Positions 6,002-40,173 of a DNA stretch of 64,000 bases are shown piece by piece. Origin of the DNA: Roseibium aggregatum (lineage in GTDB: Bacteria > Pseudomonadota > Alphaproteobacteria > Rhizobiales > Stappiaceae); NCBI RefSeq assembly GCF_014692675.1, contig NZ_JABFCZ010000018.1, positions 62,001 to 126,000 on the forward strand, written 5' to 3'. The translations under genes were made by a program, and so were the position numbers. Below the pieces are notes generated by a model. That model did no database searches. It was not told where the DNA came from and saw nothing but the letters and a program-made list of their open reading frames with translations. Each line of letters opens with the position of its first letter. Within the stretch, counting starts at the first letter, position 1.

Positions 6002-6592
6002 TCACGTGCTCCCGTAGGGATCTTTCGGCGAACGGTCATCCGACAGACTGCGCCGCGTGGTCCGCGTCAGGTTCTCGATCGCGTCCGCGAGATGGATCTC
6101 CGCGATATTATAGTCGCCGCGCGCAACCCGGATCTTGTGCGCCTCGATCATCACCTCGCCATAAGAAACGCCCGCCGGCGGTTCGAAGCGGTAGGACGCC
6201 AGCTCGATCAGGAAGCCGAGCGGATCCTCGAAATAGATGGAATCCATAAAGCCGCGGTCCTTCGGTCCGCTGTGGCGGATCCCGCGTTCGTCGAGGCGTT
6301 CGACCGTCTGCTGGAAGGTCGCCCGGGAGACGGATAGCGCCAGGTGATGCACGCATCCGATATCGGTCGACGTCCTTTTCGGATCCGGCTTGCGCTCCTC
6401 ATTGGTGAAAATCGTGATCAGCCGGCCATCGCCCGGATCGAAATAGAGATGGCTCTCATTGGCATTGTCGAGGTTGGGCTGTTCGAACACGAAGGGCATG
6501 CCCAAAAGCCCCTCCCAGAAATCGATCGATGTCTGCCTGTCGGCTCCCACCAGCGTGATGTGATGAACGCCCTGGCTCTGGATTTTCCTCAT
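6002..6592 (-). CDS. VOC-family (glyoxalase/ring-cleavage dioxygenase-like) protein
   Basis: 196 residues with two VOC half-domains. HHITLVGADRQTSIDFWEGLLGM and CVHHLALSVSRATFQQTVERLDERG give the histidine ligands, and IYFEDPLGFLIELASYRF gives the glutamate. The pattern resembles ring-cleavage or glyoxalase-type enzymes, and the substrate is unknown. The ATG at 6590-6592 is preceded by AAGGGAG; an in-frame ATG 45 bp upstream lacks such a site. A C-terminal extension of about 60 residues follows the core fold. Confidence 0.75.
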   Translation of the reverse strand: MRKIQSQGVHHITLVGADRQTSIDFWEGLLGMPFVFEQPNLDNANESHLYFDPGDGRLITIFTNEERKPDPKRTSTDIGCVHHLALSVSRATFQQTVERLDERGIRHSGPKDRGFMDSIYFEDPLGFLIELASYRFEPPAGVSYGEVMIEAHKIRVARGDYNIAEIHLADAIENLTRTTRRSLSDDRSPKDPYGST

Positions 6593-6806
6593 GACACGCT
6601 CCCTTCCCGATAGCCTCGGTCTTCGTCCTGAATTCATTCCGGCCGACAGATGGTCGTTACAGACATTTCTGCGGCGATCCCAAACCCGCGCCTATATTCC
6701 AAGTCCCGGCCGCATTTGGCCAGCCCCCTTTCCGAATGGCGCAAAACGGTTATGATCGGCTCACCCCCTGCCCCCATGCGCCGCGTCAACAGCAAGGACA
6801 CCGATA

Positions 6807-7808
6807 ATGGACAAGGCGCCAGACAAAGCGCCGGCGGACAGTTCCGCTCCCGATTCCGCCAACAGACCGGAAGACAACAGGTCCCGGTTCCGCCTGCCGG
6901 TCTGGGACGATCTGCCCCCCAACACCATCGGCGCCTTGTGGATATTGCTGGCAGCCTTCCTGTTCACCATCATGGCGACCTTCATCAAGATGGCCGGAGA
7001 GAACATTTCGGTGTTCCAGATCCTGGCCATTCGCCAGCTTGTGATGGTCGTCATCGTCGCTCCGAAAATCCTCCGGGGCCTTCCGACCTCGCTTGCGACC
7101 CATCGCCCGGATCTGCAGATCGCACGCGTGATCTTTGCGACCATCGCCATGCTCTGCGGCTTTACCGCGATCATCAAGCTGCCGCTGGCGGACGCGACCG
7201 CGCTGGGCTTCTCGAAAACCTTCTTCATCACGATCTTCGCGATCTTCTTTCTGGGCGAACAGGTCGGCATCCACCGCTGGGGTGCGACCATTGTCGGCTT
7301 TATCGGCGTTCTCCTTATGCTCAGACCCGAAGGAACCGGTTTCGTCGACCCGTATGCCCTTCTTGCCATCATGGGCGCGGCCGGAGCCGGGATCGTGATG
7401 ATCATCCTGCGCATCCTGACCCGGACGGATTCGCCGACCACCATCCTGACTTACCAGGCCCTGCTGGTCGGCTTGCTGATGATCGGCCCGGCGATCTACA
7501 CATGGCACGCGCCGACGCTTGAACAGTGGGGCATCCTGATCCTGGTCGGCGTTGTCGCCTGGGGCTCCCAGATGTGCAACATCAAGGCCTTCCGGGCCGG
7601 TGAGGCCACGGCCATTGCCTCGCTCGACTACACCAGGCTGCTTTATGCCGCGATCATCGGCGTTGTTGTTTTCGGCAACTGGCCGAGCGTCGAAACGCTC
7701 GCAGGCGCCGCGATCATCATCGGCGCCTCGCTTTACACCGTCCGCCGCGAGGCGAAGCGCGGCCGCCAACTGGCTCGCGCCGCCGAAGGGCGCGGTTACA
7801 ACAATTAA
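6807..7808 (+). CDS. DMT-superfamily (EamA) transporter
   Basis: 333 residues with a charged cytoplasmic N-terminus of about 35 residues, then ten predicted membrane helices in two EamA repeats (WILLAAFLFTIMATFIKM to GFIGVLLMLRPEG, then LLAIMGAAGAGIVMIILRIL to GAAIIIGASLYTVRRE). Such proteins usually export amino acids, nucleotides or other small metabolites. It is divergent from the VOC gene and convergent with the NTF2-like gene, so it is probably monocistronic. Confidence 0.85.
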   Translation: MDKAPDKAPADSSAPDSANRPEDNRSRFRLPVWDDLPPNTIGALWILLAAFLFTIMATFIKMAGENISVFQILAIRQLVMVVIVAPKILRGLPTSLATHRPDLQIARVIFATIAMLCGFTAIIKLPLADATALGFSKTFFITIFAIFFLGEQVGIHRWGATIVGFIGVLLMLRPEGTGFVDPYALLAIMGAAGAGIVMIILRILTRTDSPTTILTYQALLVGLLMIGPAIYTWHAPTLEQWGILILVGVVAWGSQMCNIKAFRAGEATAIASLDYTRLLYAAIIGVVVFGNWPSVETLAGAAIIIGASLYTVRREAKRGRQLARAAEGRGYNN

Positions 7809-36992: not shown

Positions 36993-37068
36993 TGGTGGGT
37001 GCACAGGGATTCGAACCCGGGACCGTCTGATTAAGAGTCAGATGCTCTACCAACTGAGCTATACACCC
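36993..37068 (-). tRNA. tRNA-Lys (CTT anticodon), CCA encoded
   Basis: Acceptor arms GGGTGTA and TGCACCC pair with one G-T. The D-arm reads AGCTCAGTTGGTAGAGC, the anticodon loop CTCTTAA gives anticodon CUU (Lys), the T-loop is GGTTCGAATCC, and the 3' CCA is encoded. 76 nt including CCA. Confidence 0.97.
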
Positions 37069-37103
37069 ATCGCGGCCGCGCTCGAAGCGCACCGGATGGC
37101 GGG

Positions 37104-37132
37104 TATATATCGTCGTGATCGGCTCGGCACAA
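37104..37132 (-). promoter_or_regulatory. Promoter of tRNA-Lys
   Basis: On the minus strand TTGTGC (37127-37132), a 17-bp spacer, and TATATA (37104-37109) lie 36 bp before the first tRNA base. This matches the sigma70 pattern well. Confidence 0.55.
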
Positions 37133-37207
37133 TCCCTTTCGTGACATTTTTTTGGCATTTCCCGAATGACATGGGAGCAAGGCCTTCAGCCTTGCCCTTC
37201 CCTCGCT

Positions 37208-37328
37208 TGTCATCCCCGGCAAGCACAGCGCGACCGGGGATCCAGTACGCCGTGACGTCTCGACTCAAGCAACCACCGTCTCGGAATACTGGATCCCGGC
37301 TCTCCGCTGCGCTCCGGCCGGGATGACA
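37208..37328. repeat. Palindromic intergenic repeat element
   Basis: Bounded by TGTCATCCC (37208-37216) and GGGATGACA (37320-37328), with inner copies GGGGATCCAGTA and TACTGGATCCC in opposite orientation. The layout is that of dispersed REP/MITE-like elements seen in alphaproteobacterial intergenic DNA. It has no coding capacity. Confidence 0.7.
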
Positions 37329-37451
37329 ACCGGGGTTGGGCAAAGCCGTGCGCCCGCACAATTGCGCCCCTCACCGCCGCCTCCCGTCAAACCCCGCCTG
37401 TAATTTTCAAAAAGCCTTGCCACGATAAACGCAATAAATGGAATTTTGCAC

Positions 37452-37480
37452 TTGACCCTGCCTGCCCCCCTGACTAGGGT
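37452..37480 (+). promoter_or_regulatory. Promoter of the ilvBN leader
   Basis: TTGACC at 37452-37457, a 17-bp spacer, and TAGGGT at 37475-37480. Transcription from here would make a leader of about 190 nt to the attenuator. Confidence 0.45.
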
Positions 37481-37579
37481 GCGGCGCATCAAGAAGGAGG
37501 TTGTGTTCCTTCGCGATCTCCGGTCCGGGGTCTCCGGCCGTTGAATTGTCAAAAGTTTCGGATTCGGGAAGACTGCATC

Positions 37580-37630
37580 ATGACGTCTCTCATTCTAGTA
37601 GTAGGAAAGCGCGCCGCCGGAACGGGATGA
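37580..37630 (+). CDS. ilvL: ilv leader peptide
   Basis: A 16-codon frame reading MTSLILVVGKRAAGTG. Codons 4-8 are Leu-Ile-Leu-Val-Val, exactly the amino acids made by the downstream pathway, and use uncommon CTA and GTA GTA codons. GGGAAG lies eight bases before the ATG. The stop codon is in the loop of a perfect hairpin (37620-37637). It is too short for routine gene calling. Ribosome stalling at the branched-chain codons would favour read-through of the terminator at 37659. Confidence 0.85.
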   Translation: MTSLILVVGKRAAGTG

Positions 37631-37637
37631 CCCGTTC
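37620..37637 (+). other. Pause hairpin at the leader stop codon
   Basis: GAACGGG (37620-37626) pairs with CCCGTTC (37631-37637) around ATGA, which contains the end of the leader frame. A second pairing GCGCGCC (37609-37615) with GGCGCGC (37648-37654) is also possible, giving alternative folds. Confidence 0.55.
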
Positions 37638-37658
37638 GGAACAGGCTGGCGCGCGCTG

Positions 37659-37681
37659 AGGTCCCGATGGGGCCTTTTTTT
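37659..37681 (+). terminator. ilvBN attenuator terminator
   Basis: AGGTCCC pairs with GGGGCCT (one T-G pair) around GAT and runs into seven T residues. It is 131 bp before the ilvB ATG and 28 bp past the leader stop. Confidence 0.85.
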
Positions 37682-37811
37682 ATGCCTCCCCGTTCCGCTT
37701 CGTGCTTCCGGATGAGCCGGATCAAGGTCGCGAATTCGAAACCCTGACAAAAACCCAGAAAACAGACACGACGAGCCACATGCCGACAGGCCAAACGCAA
37801 GGAAATCGAGA

Positions 37812-39587
37812 ATGACACGGGAGATGACCGGCGCCAACATGGTGATCCAGGCGCTGCAGGACCAGGGAGTTGACACCGTTTTCGGCTACCCGGGCGGCGC
37901 TGTGCTTCCGATCTATGACGAGATCATTCAGCAGGACGCGGTCGAGCATATCCTTGTGCGCCACGAGCAGGGCGCCGGCCATGCGGCCGAAGGCTATGCG
38001 CGGGCCACCGGCAAGCCGGGCGTGGTGCTGGTTACCTCCGGTCCGGGCGCGACCAACATGGTCACGGCGCTGACCGACGCCATGATGGACAGCATCCCGC
38101 TGGTCTGCATCACCGGCCAGGTCCCGACCCATCTGATCGGCAACGATGCCTTCCAGGAATGCGACACGGTCGGCATCACCCGGCCGTGCACCAAGCACAA
38201 CTGGCTGGTCCGCGACGTCGACGACCTCGCCCGCATCCTGCATGAGGCCTTTTATGTCGCCACCTCCGGCCGGCCGGGCCCGGTCGTTGTCGACATTCCG
38301 AAGGACGTCCAGTTCGCCACCGGCACCTATCACGGCCCGAGCGCAAACCCGGCCGCCGCCCACAAGAGCTACCGTCCGCAGGTCAAGGGTGATGCCCAGT
38401 CGATCCGGGCGGCTGCCGAACTGATGGCCCATGCCAAGAAGCCGGTGTTCTATACCGGAGGCGGCGTCGTCAACTCCGGTCCCCATGCCGCCCAGCTGCT
38501 GCGCGAACTGGTCGACCTGACCGGCTTCCCGATCACCTCCACCCTGATGGGCCTCGGCGCCTATCCGGCGAGCGGCGCAAACTGGCTCGGCATGCTCGGC
38601 ATGCACGGCACCTTTGAAGCCAACATGACCATGCACGACTGTGACGTCATGGTCTGCATCGGTGCGCGCTTCGACGACCGCATCACCGGCCGCGTCGACG
38701 CCTTCGCGCCGGATGCCAAGATCATCCACATCGACATCGACCCGTCGTCGATCAACAAGACGGTCAAGGCCCATCTGCCGATCATCGGCGACGTCGGCCA
38801 CGTTCTGGAGGATCTGGTGCGCATCTGGCGGTCGTCGTCGCTGAAGGCCGATCCGGCCGCGATGAAGGCCTGGTGGGAGCAGATCGACGCCTGGCGGGCG
38901 CGCAACTCGCTCGCCTACAAGCCCAACGAAGACATCATCATGCCGCAGTACGCCATTCAGCGGCTGTATGAACTGACCAAGGACCGCAACACCTATATCT
39001 CGACCGAGGTCGGCCAGCACCAGATGTGGGCCGCCCAGTTCTACGGCTTCGAGGCGCCGAACCGCTGGCTCACCTCCGGCGGCCTCGGCACCATGGGCTA
39101 CGGCCTGCCCGCCTGCATCGGCGCCCAGGTCGCCCACCGCGACGCGCTGTGCATCGACATCGCCGGCGACGCCTCGATCCTGATGAACATCCAGGAAATG
39201 TCGACGGCGGTTCAATACGGCCTTCCGGTCAAGGTGTTCGTGCTGAACAACCAGTACATGGGCATGGTGCGCCAGTGGCAGCAGTTGCTTCACGGCAACC
39301 GCCTGTCCCACTCCTATACGGACAGCCTGCCCGACTTCGTCAAGCTGGCCGAAGCCTATGGCGGGGTCGGCTTCAGGGTCGACAAGCCGGGCGACCTGGA
39401 CGGCGCCATCGAGGAAATGATTGCCGTCGACAAGCCGGTGCTGTTCGACTGCCGGGTGGCGAACCTTGCCAACTGCTTCCCGATGATCCCGTCTGGCAAG
39501 GCCCACAACGAAATGCTGCTTCCCGACGAAGCCAACGACGAAGCCGTGGCCAATGCCATCGGCGCGGCAGGCAAGGCCCTGGTTTGA
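37812..39587 (+). CDS. ilvB: Acetolactate synthase, large subunit
   Basis: 591 residues, TPP-dependent. VFGYPGGAVLPIYDE and RHEQGAGHAAEGYARATGKPG hold the catalytic Glu; VCIGARFDDRITG is the FAD/central domain; DIAGDASILMNIQE is the GDG-type Mg/TPP motif (GDA here). It makes acetolactate and acetohydroxybutyrate for valine, leucine and isoleucine. The gene is governed by the leader upstream. Confidence 0.95.
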   Translation: MTREMTGANMVIQALQDQGVDTVFGYPGGAVLPIYDEIIQQDAVEHILVRHEQGAGHAAEGYARATGKPGVVLVTSGPGATNMVTALTDAMMDSIPLVCITGQVPTHLIGNDAFQECDTVGITRPCTKHNWLVRDVDDLARILHEAFYVATSGRPGPVVVDIPKDVQFATGTYHGPSANPAAAHKSYRPQVKGDAQSIRAAAELMAHAKKPVFYTGGGVVNSGPHAAQLLRELVDLTGFPITSTLMGLGAYPASGANWLGMLGMHGTFEANMTMHDCDVMVCIGARFDDRITGRVDAFAPDAKIIHIDIDPSSINKTVKAHLPIIGDVGHVLEDLVRIWRSSSLKADPAAMKAWWEQIDAWRARNSLAYKPNEDIIMPQYAIQRLYELTKDRNTYISTEVGQHQMWAAQFYGFEAPNRWLTSGGLGTMGYGLPACIGAQVAHRDALCIDIAGDASILMNIQEMSTAVQYGLPVKVFVLNNQYMGMVRQWQQLLHGNRLSHSYTDSLPDFVKLAEAYGGVGFRVDKPGDLDGAIEEMIAVDKPVLFDCRVANLANCFPMIPSGKAHNEMLLPDEANDEAVANAIGAAGKALV

Positions 39588-39597
39588 GGATAGAAAC

Positions 39598-40173
39598 ATG
39601 AACGCACAAGCAAATCCGACCGCCCTATCCGCCTATTTCCTCGCGGAAGTCAGCGACAAGATCGAGACCCATACGCTTTCGGTCCTGGTCGACAACGAAC
39701 CGGGCGTCCTCGCCCGGGTCATCGGCCTGTTTTCCGGCCGCGGCTACAACATCGACAGCCTCACCGTGTCGGAAACCGAGCACGAGAAGCACCTGTCGCG
39801 GATCACCATCGTCACCACCGGTACGCCCATGGTGATCGAGCAGATCCGCAACCAGCTCGACCGGCTGGTGCCCGTCCACCGGGTGACCGACCTCACCGTT
39901 CAGGCGCGCATGGCCAACCAGGAAAAGCCGCTGGAGCGGGAACTGGCGCTGGTGAAGGTCGCCGGCAGCGGCGACAAGCGCCTGGAAGCGCTCCGTCTCG
40001 GCGACGCCTTCCGCGCCACCGTCATCGACGCGACGACGGACCATTTCGTCTTCGAGATCACCGGCCGGACCTCCAAGATCGAGCAGTTCATCTCCATCAT
40101 GAAACCGCTCGGCCTCGTGGAAGTCTCCCGCACCGGCGTGGCCGCCGTCCAGCGCGGCGCCGAAGGGCTTTAA
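39598..40173 (+). CDS. ilvN: Acetolactate synthase, small (regulatory) subunit
   Basis: 191 residues. The ACT domain THTLSVLVDNEPGVLARVIGLFSGRGYNIDSLTV binds valine for feedback inhibition, and the C-terminal ALS_ss_C domain ends GVAAVQRG. The ATG at 39598 lies ten bases after the ilvB stop, with AGGATAG in front. It forms the holoenzyme with IlvB. Confidence 0.95.
   Translation: MNAQANPTALSAYFLAEVSDKIETHTLSVLVDNEPGVLARVIGLFSGRGYNIDSLTVSETEHEKHLSRITIVTTGTPMVIEQIRNQLDRLVPVHRVTDLTVQARMANQEKPLERELALVKVAGSGDKRLEALRLGDAFRATVIDATTDHFVFEITGRTSKIEQFISIMKPLGLVEVSRTGVAAVQRGAEGL

Follow-up and report, generated by a model that had tools for sequence, protein, structure and literature searches.

The acetolactate synthase gene ilvB in the 64 kb stretch of DNA analysed here (hereafter the window) is preceded by a promoter, a 16-codon reading frame and a terminator. 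The question raised by this locus is whether these parts form a transcription attenuator, in which a ribosome on the short frame would determine whether RNA polymerase reaches ilvB, and which aminoacyl-tRNA it would sense. We conclude that the element most likely attenuates transcription of the ilvB operon through a translating ribosome, a reading to which we assign a probability of about 0.88. Its short leader ORF contains codons for the end product of the operon, an intrinsic terminator lies between this ORF and the first gene, and the leader and its codons are conserved ahead of the orthologous operon.

Results

Anatomy of the ilvB leader region

The region comprises the following features:

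37452..37480, plus strand: promoter TTGACC-N17-TAGGGT of the alphaproteobacterial sigma70 type, with a motif conserved in relatives (TTGACC at 37452-37457, spacer of 17 nt, TAGGGT at 37475-37480)
37576..37690, plus strand: match to Rfam RF02502 (Atu_C8), from the covariance model
37580..37630, plus strand: leader peptide ORF MTSLILVVGKRAAGTG, 16 residues, ATG at 37580 and stop codon TGA at 37628-37630
37589..37603, plus strand: regulatory codons CTC ATT CTA GTA GTA (Leu-Ile-Leu-Val-Val), of which the Val pair is the most conserved
37609..37654, plus strand: outer stem GCGCGCC (37609-37615) / GGCGCGC (37648-37654), from folding and covariation
37620..37637, plus strand: inner hairpin GAACGGG/CCCGTTC, arms 37620-37626 / 37631-37637 and loop ATGA, from the minimum-energy fold
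37638..37664, plus strand: candidate antiterminator, weakly predicted, GGA (37638-37640) / TCC (37662-37664) plus CAG (37642-37644) / CTG (37656-37658)
37658..37681, plus strand: intrinsic terminator, stem 37658-37665 / 37669-37676 and T run 37675-37681
37812..39587, plus strand: ilvB, acetolactate synthase large subunit, the putatively regulated gene
39553..40173, plus strand: ORF at the position of the small-subunit gene ilvN/ilvH, named by position

A sequence-only reading of this DNA had proposed a promoter, a 16-codon frame, a hairpin over the stop of that frame, a terminator with a run of seven T, and ilvB, in that order, and all of them are in place. The terminator stem has 8 pairs and is followed by the seven T, and in the minimum-energy fold the leader stop codon sits in the loop of the inner hairpin. 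On both strands of the 64 kb, the leader frame alone (with two nested starts) combines a run of five I/L/V with a terminator. The identity of ilvB is supported by its L113 orthologue (90% identical), which scores 1177.5 bits on NF006581 (cut-off 974). The ORF at 39553..40173, which from its position we take to be the ilvN/ilvH small-subunit gene, is probably co-transcribed with ilvB.

A textbook sigma70 scan of 37000-38200 returned 0 promoters and was replaced by a conservation test of the upstream motif. The pattern TTGAC-N(16-20)-CTA(G/A)NNT, written after the alignment had been viewed, is present in 24 of 25 upstream regions, several of them near-identical, versus 6 of 5000 dinucleotide shuffles. 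These regions are 24 same-genus loci, the window itself among them, plus L031, and the sole region without the motif is that of L027. The distance from the motif to the leader varies among them. We class the promoter as of the alphaproteobacterial sigma70 type; transcription would start at about 37487.

Divergent from the ilv promoter lies a tRNA-Lys gene (anticodon CTT, 36993-37068, minus strand). The interval between the two contains an inverted repeat around GGATCCAGTA ... TACTGGATCC (37235-37299), whose pattern has 5 matches in the window with up to 2 mismatches versus 1.7 expected, a number that 2 of 100 shuffles also reached.

Leader codons and their conservation

Codons were counted in the 75 of 108 ilvB loci that have the strict architecture, with positions numbered back from CGC, the first codon of the outer stem. 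L001 (the same place as L069) and L002 (MFS-linked) were omitted, and several of the 33 loci failing the strict architecture show a leader by eye. Val occupies position -3 in 69/75 leaders and position -4 in 64/75, counts that still include 4 chosen frames with fewer than three I/L/V, probably wrong ones. The Leu/Ile positions are looser, so that of the Leu-Ile-Leu-Val-Val block to which attention had been drawn it is the last two Val that are most conserved. The chosen frame was the one richest in I/L/V, and I/L/V content is thus partly selected; the distinction between Val and Leu/Ile and the choice of third base are not. In the same-genus alignments, which cover the 24 of 37 genomes whose loci were returned, the Val run is two codons long in 6 sequences and three codons long in 18, a one-codon change that stays in frame.

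The third base of these Val codons is strongly biased: 129 of 133 conserved Val codons are GTA or GTG, which together make up 34% of the Val codons in window genes. GTA and GTG are read by tRNA-Val(UAC), and the attenuator therefore probably senses that isoacceptor. The preference is in line with selective charging, an idea reportedly due to Elf and Ehrenberg. Codon usage in 41 mechanically chosen long ORFs of the window bears out the earlier description of the block as written in uncommon codons for CTA and GTA, which make up 1.1% of the Leu and 2.1% of the Val codons; for ATT and CTC the shares are 14.5% (Ile) and 26% (Leu).

Folding of the leader RNA

Both-sided changes occur at 3 of the 7 outer-stem pairs, in 15, 17 and 19 of 42 sequences, which are related, so that these changes are not independent events. 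RNAalifold retained the outer stem and the terminator only, the inner hairpin being out of register in the MAFFT alignment. Because 5 nt separate the last Val codon from the 5' arm of the outer stem, a ribosome stalled on that codon would mask part of this arm. An antiterminator helix is predicted once the arm is masked; no conserved form of it was found, and the form predicted in the window is absent from most of the 30 sequences compared.

The strength of this pairing was estimated by folding an RNA that ends before the 3' arm of the terminator, with a ribosome placed codon by codon. In the window, the energy with which the 5' arm of the terminator pairs upstream depends on the codon that the ribosome occupies: -1.2 to -1.3 kcal/mol for ACG, TCT or CTC, -0.2 to -0.3 kcal/mol for ATT, CTA or the first GTA, -3.1 kcal/mol for the second GTA, -6.9 kcal/mol for CGC and -3.0 kcal/mol for the stop codon. 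Across relatives (55 of 60 sequences; L028, L144, L147, L150 and L155 were omitted because of their frame, anchor or orientation) the median energy is -0.7 kcal/mol two codons ahead of the last Val and -3.0 kcal/mol on the last Val itself, and it does not fall back at the stop codon. In the same test, E. coli trpL gave -8.5/-9.3 kcal/mol on its Trp codons, leuL -4.5 to -8.4 kcal/mol on its CTA codons and ivbL -5.3 to -14.8 kcal/mol on its Val codons. With the ribosome at the stop codon these controls gave -0.1, -0.6 and -1.1 kcal/mol, versus the -3.0 kcal/mol of the window. The controls thus behaved as expected, and the antiterminator of the window element appears at the last Val, weak, variable in form and persisting at the stop codon. 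In terms of the folding model, the switch point at the last Val would be right, the antiterminator weak and the stop-codon state not clean. Of the full classical layout claimed by the sequence-only reading, the antiterminator is the weakly predicted part.

One test and one candidate model were set aside. Equilibrium folding was dropped as a test for attenuation: it gives the terminator a probability of about 0.98 with the ribosome on the window Val codons, but also of 0.98-1.0 (trpL, leuL) and 0.78-1.0 (ivbL) with the ribosome on the E. coli control codons. It cannot discriminate, because proven E. coli attenuators keep a high terminator probability too and hardly respond. Equilibrium folding also yields a larger antiterminator in the window with the ribosome on Ala codons. 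This was rejected as the main model since terminator probability falls below 0.7 in only 4 of the 17 relatives listed (L001, L009, L021 and L027) and Ala is not a branched-chain amino acid.

The predicted antiterminator is weak, its form varies, and it also appears away from the Val stall, which could mean that transcription ends prematurely without codon-specific control, through a constitutive terminator or mainly through the coupling of translation and transcription. However, conservation right beside the outer stem extends to the Val codons and to their third bases (GTA/GTG), and at these same codons the terminator arm changes its pairing energy. We therefore consider codon-independent termination unlikely and retain ribosome-mediated attenuation as the better account of the leader.

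RF02502 and the distribution of the leader

The leader had been presented as unannotated, but Rfam family RF02502 (Atu_C8) covers 37576-37690. The match extends over all 122 positions and scores 50.6 bits (gathering threshold 50), barely above the cut-off, and the window copy is at the edge of the family. In the genome of the window it is the single match above noise (next best E 3.2). RF02502 matches were obtained in 37/37 same-genus genomes searched, in 49 of 61 relatives overall (26 above cut-off) and, across the order, in 217 of 397 genomes (72 above cut-off), with no match in 4 same-family genomes (genus g28) under strict filters. The family is also present in 30/30 named genomes, which were hand-picked from 80 and in most of which the leader was already evident.

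Among the 30 RF02502 loci of the relatives' search, a set that includes the window's own, ilvB lies downstream in 29, the exception being L002, where the element stands before an MFS gene, and all 30 have an ORF with a branched-chain run followed by a terminator. The same combination, with the terminator no more than 100 nt from the stop codon, was found in 60 of 80 named ilvB loci (the best 80 of one scan) and was missing from 20, while the controls gave 0/79 on the reverse strand and 1/79 in the stretch from -600 to -300. Comparison with relatives, which had been set as the check on the original proposal, came out in its favour: the promoter, the peptide with its regulatory codons, the outer stem and the terminator are all conserved.

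Rfam gives Atu_C8 the type 'Gene; sRNA', and a short RNA delimited by a promoter and a terminator could be a stand-alone regulator acting in trans, with no part in ilvB attenuation. That an attenuator RNA can act in trans is documented for rnTrpL of S. meliloti (PMC10117765). Position and coding content speak against this for the present element, as the loci described above lie upstream of ilvB or, in L002, of an MFS gene, and contain a coding frame in which Val codons are conserved and indels span a single codon. Moreover, the Agrobacterium genome examined (L041/G433) has one Atu_C8 match, and this single copy precedes ilvB. An exclusively trans-acting sRNA thus seems unlikely, although the RNA may have a trans role beside attenuation. 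Given where the Agrobacterium match lies, Atu_C8 most likely corresponds to the ilv leader RNA left by termination. Atu_C8 was reportedly first described by Wilms and colleagues, and a literature search returned no title or abstract calling it an ilv leader.

A chance meeting of a short ORF and hairpins in GC-rich intergenic DNA is very unlikely. Short ORFs are common, and a terminator scan alone gave 2 matches versus 1.3 expected, but none of 1000 shuffles of 37400-37811 produced an ORF with five I/L/V in a row plus a terminator, and the arrangement is conserved in relatives.

Second copies of the RF02502 element

Two RF02502 matches were found in 24 distinct genomes (G452 and G059 being one genome), of which 23 were examined (G365 was left out). 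The second copy stands before an MFS transporter gene in 17/23 and before an ilvB paralogue in 2/23:

L111:6151-6270 (G017, same genus as the window): second RF02502 copy, followed by an MFS ORF at 6303-7505
L116, L118, L120-L122, L124-L126, L157-L161, L163, L176 and L178: other MFS-linked copies
L112:7949-8069 (R. ecuadorense): copy before a second acetolactate synthase, 62% identical to the window IlvB
L162:2359-2479 (Rhizobium sp. CCGE 510): copy before a second acetolactate synthase, 61% identical to the window IlvB

The ilvB genes themselves are duplicated in 4/23, in tandem in G338, G294 and G352, whereas in G259 one copy was viewed, before ilvB. The tandem genes at L114, L115 and L179 have an attenuator copy each, about 2.7 kb apart. 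In G163, the ORF taken after the other RF02502 copy (L183) had no IlvB match.

The 17 MFS-linked copies come from 1 genome of the window's genus, 5 of one other family and 11 that are Rhizobium/Mesorhizobium-like. The G017 transporter scores 217.8 bits on the Bcr/CflA efflux model TIGR00710 (cut-off 200.9), and the 16 other transporters share 47-66% identity with it across the aligned portion. Their leaders keep Val at -3 and -4 in 17/17, with Leu/Ile looser. A TTGAC box lies 37-39 nt before the match, and about 35 nt before the ATG, in 17/17 MFS copies and 2/2 ilvB-paralogue copies; this spacing suggests that their transcripts are leaderless or nearly so. The genome of the window has no second RF02502 element, and its sole MFS relative at E <= 1e-40 is 38% identical. 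No title or abstract linking the present element to an MFS gene was returned by the literature search.

As a tentative explanation, it is possible that copying has spread the ilv attenuator as a ready sensor cassette. Together the copies could then respond when branched-chain synthesis is blocked or the decoding of Val codons slows down, one kind by supplying a spare enzyme and the other by exporting the agent or a metabolite.

In E. coli K-12 (L174, 3852500-3854500) the multidrug pump gene emrD is located near the ilvB leader ivbL, on the opposite strand, a proximity that is probably coincidental.

Discussion

Attenuation of the ilvB operon by a translating ribosome could proceed as follows. 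RNA polymerase would start near 37487 and a ribosome would translate the 16-residue leader. When tRNA-Val is charged, chiefly the isoacceptor for GTA/GTG, the ribosome would clear the Val codons. Formation of the outer stem and the terminator would follow, and termination near 37681 would leave an RNA of roughly 195 nt. When charged Val-tRNA is scarce (or, to a lesser degree, Leu- or Ile-tRNA), the ribosome would stall on the last Val codon, with its footprint over the outer stem's 5' arm. This would free the 3' side of that stem to pair with the terminator's 5' arm, and the polymerase would continue into ilvB.

This reading has consequences beyond the window. RF02502, filed as an sRNA in Rfam, gains a likely mechanism, and valine control of ilvB through the tRNA reading GTA/GTG is predicted for many bacteria of one large order. 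The MFS-linked copies allow testing whether an amino-acid attenuator has been reused to sense trouble and drive export.

Among known systems, the window element matches RF02502 Atu_C8 in sequence and structure over the whole model. The difference is in what the RNA is taken to be: Rfam types it as an sRNA gene, whereas 29 of the 30 loci, the window's own included, are ilvB leaders with a coding frame. The E. coli leaders ivbL, leuL and trpL share with the window element a leader peptide, control codons and a terminator, but their predicted antiterminators are more stable than that of the window and disappear once the ribosome is placed on the stop codon.

For ilvBN of Caulobacter crescentus, PMC4117421 describes an attenuator with a leader CDS (ilvL) in which Ile and Val codons stand in tandem, together with a Rho-independent terminator, and cites Tarleton et al. 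1994. As in the window, a leader CDS and a terminator precede the operon. RF02502 had no match at E <= 0.001 in 14 control genomes, Caulobacter vibrioides among them, and the Caulobacter leader RNA is therefore either diverged or unrelated in sequence. Within the order of the window organism, an 'ilvIH cis regulatory' element 5' of S. meliloti ilvIH appears in PMC2573895 as a prediction citing Vitreschak et al. 2004, and Table 3 of that paper gives it as then absent from Rfam. A locus of Sinorhizobium saheli (L043/L135) carries an RF02502 ilv leader. Since ilvBN/ilvIH attenuation is already on record, from a description for Caulobacter and a prediction for S. meliloti, the window element joins a known type, of which it is a further example.
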